DNA from: an uncultured SAR86 cluster bacterium
Lineage (GTDB): Bacteria; Pseudomonadota; Gammaproteobacteria; Magnimaribacterales; AG-339-G14
Direction: 5' to 3'
Length of the DNA stretch: 34,317 nucleotides
NCBI GenBank assembly: GCA_902635045.1
Contig: CACPMT010000004.1
Location: forward strand, 1-34,317
Shown here: piece by piece, positions 17,228 to 20,937 of the stretch
How positions within the stretch are numbered: the stretch's first letter is position 1
Layout of the letters: each line of letters opens with the position of its first letter
Made by a program: the position numbers and the translations under genes
The notes under the pieces: model-generated
Told to the model about the DNA's origin: nothing
The model's database searches: none
What the model saw: the letters and a program-made list of their open reading frames with translations, nothing else

Positions 17228-18020
17228 TTGGAAAAATTTGAAATATAACTCCAAACTTGGGATGATCAACATAGTGCAATTCTTTAGATTTTACCTTTCT
17301 GGAATGATTCATTCGATATAAAAAATTTAAATTTACCTCTTCTAATAAATTAGATTCTTTCATTTCAAATTGATCCTTTTTTGTTTGTTCAAGTATTTTA
17401 ATATTTATTTCAGAAGGGGCTGGTTCAGAGCTTTCTTTCGTAAAATATAGATTTAAATCTAGGTGAAGGAATCTTTTTTTATATACCTTAAGCTCTCCAA
17501 TGACAATATCTTTATAATCGGCTTCTGTCTTAACCAAAATAGGTAATGCTTCGGTCTCCTTTTTTATTTTTTGAAACCAAGAGTTAAATCCGATTACCCT
17601 GTAGTTTTTACTTCTTTTGAGGCTTTGAATAATTTCTTCCATAGCAAAATCGATCCCTGAGTCGTTTTGAAAAAAAACTTGGTTCTTTGACATTTCAATT
17701 TTTTCTTCTTTTTCCTTTTTTTGAATATTTGAGTTATCAATAATTCTTGTAATGGAAATATCTTGAAATAAATCTTGATAAGGTAGATCGTTTTCTAAAC
17801 TGTCTGGTTTTATAAACTCAGGATACTTGAGATTTGTAATATTTATCAGTTCGTCAGAAAAAAATATCTCTGGAGGTAAAAATCTTTCTTCAGAAGTAAT
17901 TTCCGGTAAAAACTTGAAAATAATGTAATCAATTCTATAAATATTTTCTTCTGAAAAAGAAATATTTGAAAAAATAAAAAAATTGAAAATTAAAAGAAAA
18001 TTAAGCTTTATTTTGCGCAT
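17214..18020 (-). CDS. CsiV-family periplasmic protein
   Basis: A 268-residue exported protein: basic start MRKIK, hydrophobic stretch to about residue 22, probable signal peptidase site after SFS. The mature part begins IYRIDYIIFKF, and the C-terminus has RKVKSKELHYVDHPKFGVIFQIFP, the most conserved block of the CsiV family. In Vibrio cholerae CsiV binds peptidoglycan and is needed for the response to the D-amino-acid-type signal of Tse2/TseL-independent cell wall targeting; I rely here only on the family label and peptidoglycan association. The gene directly follows mfd with a 20-base overlap, an arrangement also found in Pseudomonas and others. The central region is Lys/Glu-rich and poorly conserved. 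Confidence 0.75.
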   Translation of the reverse strand: MRKIKLNFLLIFNFFIFSNISFSEENIYRIDYIIFKFLPEITSEERFLPPEIFFSDELINITNLKYPEFIKPDSLENDLPYQDLFQDISITRIIDNSNIQKKEKEEKIEMSKNQVFFQNDSGIDFAMEEIIQSLKRSKNYRVIGFNSWFQKIKKETEALPILVKTEADYKDIVIGELKVYKKRFLHLDLNLYFTKESSEPAPSEINIKILEQTKKDQFEMKESNLLEEVNLNFLYRMNHSRKVKSKELHYVDHPKFGVIFQIFPITNK

Positions 18021-20937
18021 TAAATGAGAGTAGGTTTTCTAAAACAAAATCTATTTTATCCATTTCTTGAGTTGAATAGTTAAGAAATATTTTTTCTAAT
18101 TCTGAGCCTTGAGGCTTTAAGGGGCTTTTTGAATTTAAATAAATATATATTCTTTTTTGTTCCGATAAAATTTTATAAATTAATAATTTGCTACATAAAA
18201 TTCTTATCCTAGCTATTTTAATTAAATTCTCAGTCTCTTCAGGAAGCTTGCCAAACCTATCCTCTAATTCTTTTTTTAATTCAAATAAGTCCTTTTCTTT
18301 TTTGAAAGAAGTAATTTTTTTATATATAGACAATCTTACTTCAGGTTGGGGTATTGATTCTTCAGTAATATAACCGTTAACTCCGAGTTTAATTTCAATT
18401 TCATCTAAGTTGGTTTCATGTTCTCCTGAGAGTGCCTTTATTGATTTATCTATGAGTGAAGTAAAAAGAGTCAATCCGACAAAATCAATTACTCCACTTT
18501 GTTTTTCACCCAAAATTTCACCAGCACCTCTTATTTCCAAATCTCTCATTGCTAGATTAAATCCAGAATTGAGCGAGTCACCAAATTTTAGAGCTTCCAT
18601 TCTAGCAATTGCATTCTTTGACAGGCTTTTTTCTTCTGTAGTTAAAAAATATGCGTAAGCCTGTCTTTTTGATCTACCTACTCTTCCTCTAATTTGATGA
18701 AGTTGAGATAAACCAAAGTTTTCAGCGGCTTCAACTATTAAAGTATTTGCATTTGGAATATCTAAGCCACTTTCGATGATTGTTGTACAAACCAAAATAT
18801 CTACTTCTTTGTTGTGAAACTTGATCATAATTTCTTTTAGTTCTTTCGGAGACATTTGGCCATGGGCTGATGAGACAATGGCATCAGGTAAGATTTTCTT
18901 AATTTCTTTAACTTTAACGTTTAATCTAGCTACACTATTTAAAAGATAAAAAGATTGGCCTGATCTATGAAATTCCCTTTCTAAGGCTTCTTTGATCAAT
19001 CCATTAGAGTATCTAGATACAATAGTTTCTACAGTTTTTCGACCAGGCGGAGGAGAAGAAATAATCGAAATATCTCTTACTTTAGAAAGTGCTAAATTCA
19101 ATGACCTAGGAATAGGTGTCGCAGAAAGATAAATAACGTTAACTCCTTTTTTTAAGTTTCTTAACTTTTCTTTTTGCCTTACACCAAACCTATGTTCCTC
19201 ATCGATAACTAATAAGCCTAGATCAGCAAACGTGATTGAATCGCTTAACAGAGAATGAGTTCCAATAATTATTGAGATGTCTCCATTCTTTAATTCTTCG
19301 ATAATTTTACTTTTTTCTTTCTGCGATCTTTCCCTTGATAAAAAATCTACCTTTACATCAAAATTCTTAAATCTTTCTTTAAATAATTCAAAATGTTGTC
19401 TTGCTAATACTGTTGTTGGAGCAAGAATACAGACTTGTTTTAGATTTTCTGTGCATATGAAAGAGGCTCTTAGGGCAATTTCTGTTTTACCAAAACCAAC
19501 CTCACCACAAACTAATCGATCTTGAGGTTTAGAAATAGACAAATCATTTGTAACCTGAGAAATTGTTATTTTTTGATCTACTGTTTCAGTAAACCCAAAT
19601 CCATCCTTAAACAATTCGTATTTATTTTTATCTGAAATAGATAATTGATCTGACTTTTCAATTTTTCTTTTGGCTTCTGCCTCAAGTAATTCTGCAGCAA
19701 TGTCGTAAGCTTTTTTTTCAGATTTCTCTTTTTTTATCCTCCAATTATTTTTACTTAACGAATCTAATTTAATTTCTTGATTTCCAATATAAGGACTTAA
19801 TGTGCTCATCGAATCAACAGGAATATATAAAATTTCTTCCCCATCGTATTCAATAACAAAGCATTCGGTATTATTTAAATTTTTAAGACCTCTATAAATA
19901 CCAATGCCATAGTTTGAGTGCACTATTCTTTTGCCGATTATAAATTGATAAAAATCTTCAACGGATGTCTGATTTTGATCTGATTTTTTTTCTTGATTTT
20001 CTTCTTTAAAAGTTTGATTTGAAATTGTTTCTTTTTTTTCTGTAGGCAAAATCTCATGATTTTTTAAGATTTCAGATGGCTTGTTGTAAAGGATTTCAGG
20101 TTTTAAAGGAGGGCGATTTTTATCAGAAATGAAATCTTTAAACCTTCTATTTATTAACTCCCAATATTTTTTTGCGCTTTCATCTACATTTCCGTAAGAA
20201 AATACCTTAAAGAGAGAGAAAAAATCATCAAATGTTGGCTTTTTCTGATAGAAGAGAGGGAAATAGGACTCTATACCTTCCGGAAATTTACCTTTAGTAA
20301 CTTGATCAAAAAAATCACCATCTTCGTTAAACTCTCTTCTCCAATTTTTTTTGAATAATGCTATTGAGTCTGTATCTAACTCAAAACCTTTACTTGATCT
20401 GCATTTGTATTTACTTATTTTTTTCAATGAAAGTTGAGAGTCTTTATCAAACAATCTTATTGACTCTATTATTTCGTCATCTAAATCTATTCTGAGAGGT
20501 AAATTTGAATTTGAAGGAAAAATGTCAATTACCGAACCTCTAACTGCAAATTCAGCTCTTTCCGAAACAATCTCAGAGGCTTTGTATCCTGATTTAGTTA
20601 GCAAAACGATAAGTTGATTCCTATCTAAATTTTCTCCTTCGATAAACTCATAAGAGAACTTATTAAAACAATTTTTATCAAAATAAGGTTGAATCAAAGA
20701 ATTTATAGTCGAAATAACAATTATTTTTTCTTGATTTGAAATTTCTACCATTGCTTCAAGACGAGAAGACAGTTTTTCTTGATGAGGTGAGAAAAGGTCG
20801 TAAGGTAATATTTCAAGATCATTTAAGACACAATAATCTTTGATTTTTTGATTTTCTAAGTATCCAACTAAATCATTTAAAAAATATTGATTTTCACAAA
20901 TTATTAAAGATTTTTGATGTCCTAAAATTCTATGCAT
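18001..20937 (-). CDS. mfd: Transcription-repair coupling factor Mfd, apparently lacking domain D3
   Basis: A 978-residue DNA translocase that removes stalled RNA polymerase and recruits UvrA. The UvrB-like module starts at residue 1 (LEILPYDLFSPHQEKLSSRL; ERAEFAVRGSVIDIFPS in the UvrA-binding part). The polymerase-interaction domain has VHSNYGIGIYRGL and YIPVDSMSTLSPYIG. The RecG-like motor has Walker A GEVGFGKTE from residue 478, VIDEEHRFGV, SATPIPRS and HQIRGRVGRSKRQAYAY; the C-terminal regulatory domain is present (RLSIYKKI, DRFGKLPEE). E. coli Mfd is 1148 residues; about 30 are missing at the N-terminus and about 115-120 between the UvrB-like and polymerase-interaction domains, where only a Lys/Glu/Gln-rich linker remains. 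I use the ATG at 20937; an upstream TTG at 20967 adds 10 residues with no ribosome site. csiV overlaps the 3' end. Confidence 0.94.
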   Translation of the reverse strand: MHRILGHQKSLIICENQYFLNDLVGYLENQKIKDYCVLNDLEILPYDLFSPHQEKLSSRLEAMVEISNQEKIIVISTINSLIQPYFDKNCFNKFSYEFIEGENLDRNQLIVLLTKSGYKASEIVSERAEFAVRGSVIDIFPSNSNLPLRIDLDDEIIESIRLFDKDSQLSLKKISKYKCRSSKGFELDTDSIALFKKNWRREFNEDGDFFDQVTKGKFPEGIESYFPLFYQKKPTFDDFFSLFKVFSYGNVDESAKKYWELINRRFKDFISDKNRPPLKPEILYNKPSEILKNHEILPTEKKETISNQTFKEENQEKKSDQNQTSVEDFYQFIIGKRIVHSNYGIGIYRGLKNLNNTECFVIEYDGEEILYIPVDSMSTLSPYIGNQEIKLDSLSKNNWRIKKEKSEKKAYDIAAELLEAEAKRKIEKSDQLSISDKNKYELFKDGFGFTETVDQKITISQVTNDLSISKPQDRLVCGEVGFGKTEIALRASFICTENLKQVCILAPTTVLARQHFELFKERFKNFDVKVDFLSRERSQKEKSKIIEELKNGDISIIIGTHSLLSDSITFADLGLLVIDEEHRFGVRQKEKLRNLKKGVNVIYLSATPIPRSLNLALSKVRDISIISSPPPGRKTVETIVSRYSNGLIKEALEREFHRSGQSFYLLNSVARLNVKVKEIKKILPDAIVSSAHGQMSPKELKEIMIKFHNKEVDILVCTTIIESGLDIPNANTLIVEAAENFGLSQLHQIRGRVGRSKRQAYAYFLTTEEKSLSKNAIARMEALKFGDSLNSGFNLAMRDLEIRGAGEILGEKQSGVIDFVGLTLFTSLIDKSIKALSGEHETNLDEIEIKLGVNGYITEESIPQPEVRLSIYKKITSFKKEKDLFELKKELEDRFGKLPEETENLIKIARIRILCSKLLIYKILSEQKRIYIYLNSKSPLKPQGSELEKIFLNYSTQEMDKIDFVLENLLSFNAQNKA

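Follow-up and report, generated by a model that had tools for sequence, protein, structure and literature searches.

Mfd is a motor protein that removes stalled RNA polymerase (RNAP) and calls in DNA repair. In the Mfd of Escherichia coli (2EYQ, 6X26) a UvrB-homology module, D1a-D2-D1b, is followed by D3, the RNAP interaction domain (RID, or D4), a relay helix, the translocase lobes D5 and D6, and D7. The Mfd described here, from an uncultured bacterium of the SAR86 cluster, has these domains in the same order except for D3. Its gene lies at positions 18001-20937, on the minus strand, of a 34,317-nucleotide stretch of DNA (GenBank assembly GCA_902635045.1, contig CACPMT010000004.1, positions 1 to 34,317); the whole of the stretch that was analysed is called the window below. 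SAR86 is a member of the Gammaproteobacteria. A first-pass annotation, made from the sequence of the window, had suggested that this Mfd lacks D3.

A 2021 cryo-electron microscopy study proposes that D1-D3 of E. coli Mfd release and swing on the 25-residue D3-D4 linker during loading, and already describes D3 as non-conserved and lineage-specific (PMC7864632). In a 2025 preprint D1-D3 appear to dissociate and rebind (PMC12424862). Residues of the clamp between D2 and D7 of the E. coli protein have also been described (PMC3025350). A paper of 2020 lists D3 as a domain of unknown function, in keeping with the view of the first-pass annotation that it has no firmly assigned role; the same paper, however, argues that it helps to unmask the UvrA site of E. 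coli Mfd, and describes a contact of D3 with D7 in the DNA-bound protein (PMC7385628).

The Mfd of Thermus thermophilus (6M6A) too has 978 amino acids, and its RID begins near residue 320. It is reported to displace RNAP (PMC7672476), and therefore an Mfd of that length works. From its length, and from the lack of an MFD_D3 match in a Thermus composti control, it probably has no D3. Its N-terminal region gave no match to residues 1-290 of the window Mfd at E<=10.

An Mfd without D3

The mfd gene of the window is one continuous open frame of 978 amino acids, beginning with ATG at 20937. The whole protein scores 866.3 bits against TIGR00580, the equivalog model of Mfd, for which the curated cut-off is 800; the best piece in a genome-level search, which scores pieces, reached 796.7 bits, below that cut-off. 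Pfam matches show that the UvrB-homology module with the UvrA-interaction domain D2 (UvrB_inter, PF17757, residues 100-181, E 1.3e-19), the RID upstream of the motor (CarD_TRCF_RID, PF02559, 332-384, E 4e-13) and a RecG-like SF2 translocase with its C-terminal TRCF domain (DEAD, PF00270, 455-612; Helicase_C, PF00271, 651-756; TRCF, PF03461, 852-943) are present. MFD_D3 (PF21132), which belongs between D1b and the RID, has no match anywhere in the genome of the window (1.11 Mb in 9 contigs, 88.5% complete), which does encode UvrA. As a test of presence or absence across phyla PF21132 was dropped, for it matches only 3 of 14 control genomes; Corynebacterium is among those it misses, and in the related M. 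smegmatis the RID is preceded by >500 residues. Since a failure to match is not the same as absence of D3, the length of the D3 slot was used where decisive.

Compared with E. coli Mfd by phmmer, the window Mfd aligns in two blocks, residues 25-293 against 60-330 and 314-942 against 459-1097. Between them E. coli has 128 residues and the window Mfd 20, so that 108 are gone between D1b and the RID. In addition, 47 aligned proteins were cut at E. coli landmarks, using domain limits, with a D3 of ~107 residues, that we take to be those of the E. coli protein. In the D3 slot, E. coli 350-456, the window Mfd has 15 residues against the 107 of E. coli, and D2, D5 and D6 are at full or nearly full length (D2 86/86; D5 240 vs 239). 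The N-terminus is shorter than that of E. coli by about 31-35 residues over the two comparisons, and by about 35 in that of phmmer. These results bear out the first-pass annotation, which had placed the Walker A motif at residue 478 against about 627 in E. coli (628 when calculated from the two blocks), ascribed ~30 residues of the offset to the N-terminus, and located the remainder between the UvrB-like module and the RID. A compact fold at residues 285-345 and a placement of this loss elsewhere in the protein were looked for, and neither was found in the structural model or the alignments. The window Mfd lacks D3 and is complete in the rest except for its N-terminus; the UvrB-homology module, RID, translocase and D7 are all kept.

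An AlphaFold2 model was built from a 12-sequence alignment, with a mean predicted local distance difference test score (pLDDT) of 77.9 and a predicted template modelling score (pTM) of 0.61; a first model from six similar sequences (pLDDT 37.7) had been set aside as unusable. The longest stretch with pLDDT <50 is residues 300-330, in which no regular structure is seen as far as 325, and pLDDT is 26-33 in the three ten-residue blocks spanning 301-330. D1b ends in helices at 280-283 and 287-290, and a short helix at 326-331 precedes RID strands that begin at 337. The charge-hydropathy scan of the window Mfd has its minimum at residue 313; this is a weak test, for although an unfavourable run lies over the linker in 7/7 D3-less proteins, the protein-wide minimum is there in only 2/7. 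A flexible polar linker does stand in place of D3, as first described, but of the roughly 49 residues assigned to the replacement the outer ones are part of D1b (helix 287-290) and of the stretch that leads into the RID, leaving a low-confidence core of 300-330. In fold comparison by VIA-align the model matched E. coli Mfd 6x26 (L1 state) over 940 residues (Z 44.9, root-mean-square deviation (rmsd) 8.3, chain of 1142, range 30-1147) and M. smegmatis Mfd over 916 (Z 40.5, rmsd 5.5, chain of 1171). The top row, tied in Z, was another state of E. coli Mfd, with rmsd 26.2, and RecG (1GM5) matched with Z 35.8 and rmsd 3.4 over 412 aligned residues.

In six pairs of close relatives the whole-gene ratio of nonsynonymous to synonymous divergence (dN/dS) is 0.05-0.12, although in the more distant pairs synonymous changes approach saturation. 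Purifying selection thus acts on the gene, which is not decaying. The linker, residues 285-333, is 39-92% identical in the same pairs, with dN/dS of 0.35-0.68, and its dN is the highest of the five regions compared in 6/6 pairs.

The segments of the gene, all on the minus strand, are as follows. D1a comprises residues 1-95 (20653-20937, from segment alignment), the counterpart of ~E. coli 1-34 being missing. D2, with the UvrA-binding face, comprises 96-180 (20398-20652, from PF17757 and site mapping), and D1b 181-290 (20068-20397), phmmer following E. coli up to residue 288-293 and the last helix of the model being that at 287-290. The flexible linker in place of D3, defined by pLDDT, charge-hydropathy and dN/dS, is residues 291-333 (19939-20067), including the low-confidence core. 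D4, the RID, follows at 334-395 (19753-19938, from the PF02559 match), D5 at 425-634 (19036-19665, from PF00270 and alignment) with Walker A, GEVGFGKT, at 478-485 (19483-19506), D6 at 635-841 (18415-19035, from PF00271), and D7 at 842-978 (18004-18414, from PF03461). D6 contains what we take to be the TRG motif, with R803 corresponding to E. coli R953.

The tested DNA-contact and D2-D7 clamp residues of E. coli Mfd are kept in the window Mfd. The Walker A lysine, residue 484, aligns with E. coli K634, and in E. coli numbering R685, T710, N817, H842, T868, W550 and L499 are kept as well. D2 retains R133 and R149 (E. coli R165 and R181) and has D153 where E. coli has F185; in D7 the clamp residues E890 and D893 (E1045 and D1048) are present. 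R865, named in one study (PMC7385628), is Leu in the K-12 sequence used and was therefore left unscored.

Two further observations concern the ends of the gene. All sampled proteins of the window's family lack the start of D1a, with 0-3 residues in the slot of E. coli 1-34 in 30/30; Mfd of this family begins at the counterpart of ~E. coli residue 32-35, which is position 20937 in the window. At the other end a CsiV-family gene (PF10972; 17214-18020) begins within the last mfd codons, and the overlap of 20 bases suggests that the two genes are on one transcript.

Distribution and history within the order

Five contigs titled SAR86 carry the same D3-less architecture, with 81-83% identity to the window Mfd. 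In what follows f1 is the family of the window, f2, f3 and f4 are other families of the same order, and g numbers are genera. In the 47-protein alignment the D3 slot has 8-17 residues in f1 (30/30), 11-14 in f2 (7/7) and 6 in the one protein of f3-g11. Elsewhere in f3, where Mfd has the same domains in the same order and the genomes are similarly small, the slot has 85-93 residues (7/7 aligned). D3 is missing from every readable sampled Mfd of f1, f2 and f3-g11, while the other f3 genera keep an insert.

A survey of the order covered 116 genomes at least 80% complete, with an Mfd threshold of 1e-95; here D3 was judged by frame length and run-through of the match, not by slot counts. Mfd was found in 83/116, and the 33 without it include incomplete genomes. 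Among 25 f1 genomes with Mfd, 24 were matched in one piece, with frames of 928-1006 except for G031, whose frame is merged through undetermined bases, and the gene in G033 is broken. In f2, 16 of 17 were in one piece (frames 985-998) and one was partial; in f3-g11, five of six were in one piece at 1003-1005 and one was a fragment. The other f3 genera had Mfd in 35 genomes, 29 with frames of 1056-1118 and six with fragments. In f4 Mfd was absent from 8/8 genomes (G039, G042, G045, G048, G051, G054, G057, G060), which gave RecG-like matches only. UvrA is present in all eight, and these bacteria apparently carry out excision repair without the Mfd coupling factor. In G033 (f1-g3; G033:C1:447684-450588) there are in-frame stops in both mfd and uvrA, perhaps from sequencing errors, perhaps from decay.

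In a 31-row tree built on the alignment columns from RID to D6, g11 is nested in f3 between bearers of the D3 slot, with Shimodaira-Hasegawa-like approximate likelihood ratio (SH-aLRT) supports of 96 and 92. The free tree requires a minimum of three changes of state. Forcing all D3-less rows into one clade costs 94.5 log units, and a single loss in the order is rejected by the approximately unbiased test (p-AU 1.3e-5), in a tree that drew a warning from the tool because the branches of g11 and g14 are long. A single clade of f1 and f2 is not rejected (p-AU 0.62). The alignment and tree make a strong but not final case that, provided D3 is ancestral, it has been lost two or three times in this order.

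A wider sample covered the class to which the search tool assigns the genome of the window, with an Mfd threshold of 1e-110. In 275 genomes Mfd was found in 256 and an MFD_D3 match in 250, both being present in 244; six had MFD_D3 but no Mfd at that threshold, and 12 had Mfd but no MFD_D3. Three of the 12 are in the order, G000 and G008 being D3-less and G038 having a divergent insert. Among the nine outside it, the slot has 80-109 residues in seven, while the other two are fragments of contigs that do not allow a judgement. Across 299 genomes sampled from the phylum MFD_D3 was matched in 217, and the window Mfd in 296 at 1e-90. Among the matches listed no other D3-less but otherwise complete Mfd was seen, the 82 genomes without MFD_D3 not being inspected singly, and the only frames <1,100 were those of the window Mfd and G448. 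The latter (1.0 Mb, same class; G448:C1:352390-354264) has an Mfd frame of 717 amino acids in which the match begins at the RID, so this Mfd seemingly lacks the UvrB-homology module.

The reverse history, in which the order was D3-less from the start and f3 later gained an insert unrelated to D3, would account for the lack of a significant sequence link between that insert and the E. coli-type D3: it has no Pfam match, and in a local profile comparison gave E 0.63 to the E. coli-type D3 and E 0.009 to divergent D3s, where the same comparison links divergent inserts of other class members to D3 (E 4e-14). Yet the alignment with D3, though weak, runs end to end. Outside the order, moreover, the 253 Mfd-matching class genomes comprise the 244 with MFD_D3, the seven with inserts and the two fragments. 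A later gain in f3 is therefore improbable.

Proposed action of a D3-less Mfd and competing explanations

The preferred reading, to which a probability of about 0.8 is assigned, is that the protein acts as Mfd normally does, with D1-D2 attached through a flexible tether and the D2-D7 latch retained. The protein would still bind the RNAP beta protrusion through D4, D5 and D6 would translocate, and the D2-D7 clamp would switch Mfd off at rest. As the motor loaded onto DNA, the D1-D2 module would swing out on its tether and UvrA could bind D2. Apart from the loss of D3 and of the first ~31-35 residues, and Asp in place of F185, the window Mfd differs from that of E. coli in this flexible tether of 31-43 residues, which sits directly on D1b and could serve the same step as the E. 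coli D3-D4 linker. The contacts that E. coli D3 makes with D5/D6 at rest and with D7 when DNA is bound cannot form here, and Mfd function in these cells is thus unlikely to depend on them.

Several observations weigh against this reading. With 12 sequences and a pTM of 0.61, the model does not settle where D1-D2 lies with respect to the motor. The clamp is not uniformly conserved: the counterpart of E. coli D1048 is Asn in 7/7 f2 proteins (L040-L046), and that of E1045 is Asp in 8/30 and Ile in 1/30 f1 proteins and varies in f3 too. In addition, an acidic residue replaces the putative UvrA contact F185 in 24/24 proteins of g1-g3. UvrA recruitment may thus be altered, which the proposed mechanism leaves unexplained.

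Other explanations of the short protein fare less well. Draft genomes are error-prone, and one relative, G033, has stops within mfd; but the frame in the window is continuous, its architecture recurs in the five SAR86 contigs and in 30/30 f1 proteins, and the dN/dS of the gene is low, so that an assembly error, frameshifted gene or decaying pseudogene is hardly conceivable. It is very unlikely, too, that residues 285-335 still form a diverged and shortened mini-D3 that sequence methods miss. The D3-sized inserts of f3, unrecognised by Pfam and with no significant alignment to the E. coli-type D3, indicate that D3 can drift beyond recognition. Against this, the slot has only 6-17 residues in 38/38 D3-less proteins, compared with 85-110 in the nine proteins of that alignment that have the slot filled, residues 300-325 show no regular structure in the model, and the linker has the highest dN in every pair.

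Genome streamlining, raised in the first-pass annotation, would have removed D3 with function unchanged. SAR86 genomes are small (1.0-1.8 Mb), the D3-less f1 (1.0-1.3 Mb) and f3-g11 (1.0-1.2 Mb) are smaller on average than the 29 complete D3-length f3 (1.1-1.5 Mb), and f4 has no Mfd at all; these sizes are rounded, from incomplete assemblies, and were compared without control for relatedness. However, the largest assemblies are those of the D3-less f2 (1.2-1.8 Mb), and six other class genomes of 1.0-1.2 Mb keep 96-108 residues in the slot, so that size alone does not predict D3 loss. As a full account streamlining is doubtful, and it is at best a partial explanation.

A putative UvrA contact and the meaning of D3 loss

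E. coli F185 has been described as a highly conserved residue that putatively interacts with UvrA (PMC3025350). Its counterpart in the window Mfd is D153 (20479-20481, minus strand). The acidic replacement, Asp or Glu, is confined within f1 to the genus of the window and two others (g1-g3); Phe is found in 6/6 proteins of f1-g4, Phe or Tyr in 7/7 of f2 and Phe in 8/8 of f3. Since f2 and g11, also without D3, keep the aromatic residue, the replacement is not explained by the loss of D3. UvrB keeps Phe at the aromatic position in 6/6 f1 genomes checked, including that of the window. A bolder suggestion is that in these three genera the loss of D3 and the acidic residue together mark an Mfd with a rebuilt or weakened UvrA hand-off. 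Such a protein would be mainly an autoinhibited RNAP-clearing motor and not a recruiter of repair, a step towards the state of f4, in which Mfd is missing altogether. This is speculative, and the odds are well against it.

No account of a D3-less SAR86 Mfd was seen among listed papers on Mfd without D3, on domain loss in Thermus or Thermotoga Mfd, or on SAR86 Mfd and repair, in a search whose coverage left most subscription journals outside. The window Mfd is a well-known protein in a derived form, not a new kind, and because D3 was already described as non-conserved the advance is modest. What the order offers is an apparent loss of D3 at least twice, in an Mfd otherwise under strong selection and with close relatives that keep the insert. 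Related Mfds with and without it provide a natural test of the role of D3 in autoinhibition, loading and UvrA hand-off, and thereby a probe of the purpose of this domain.

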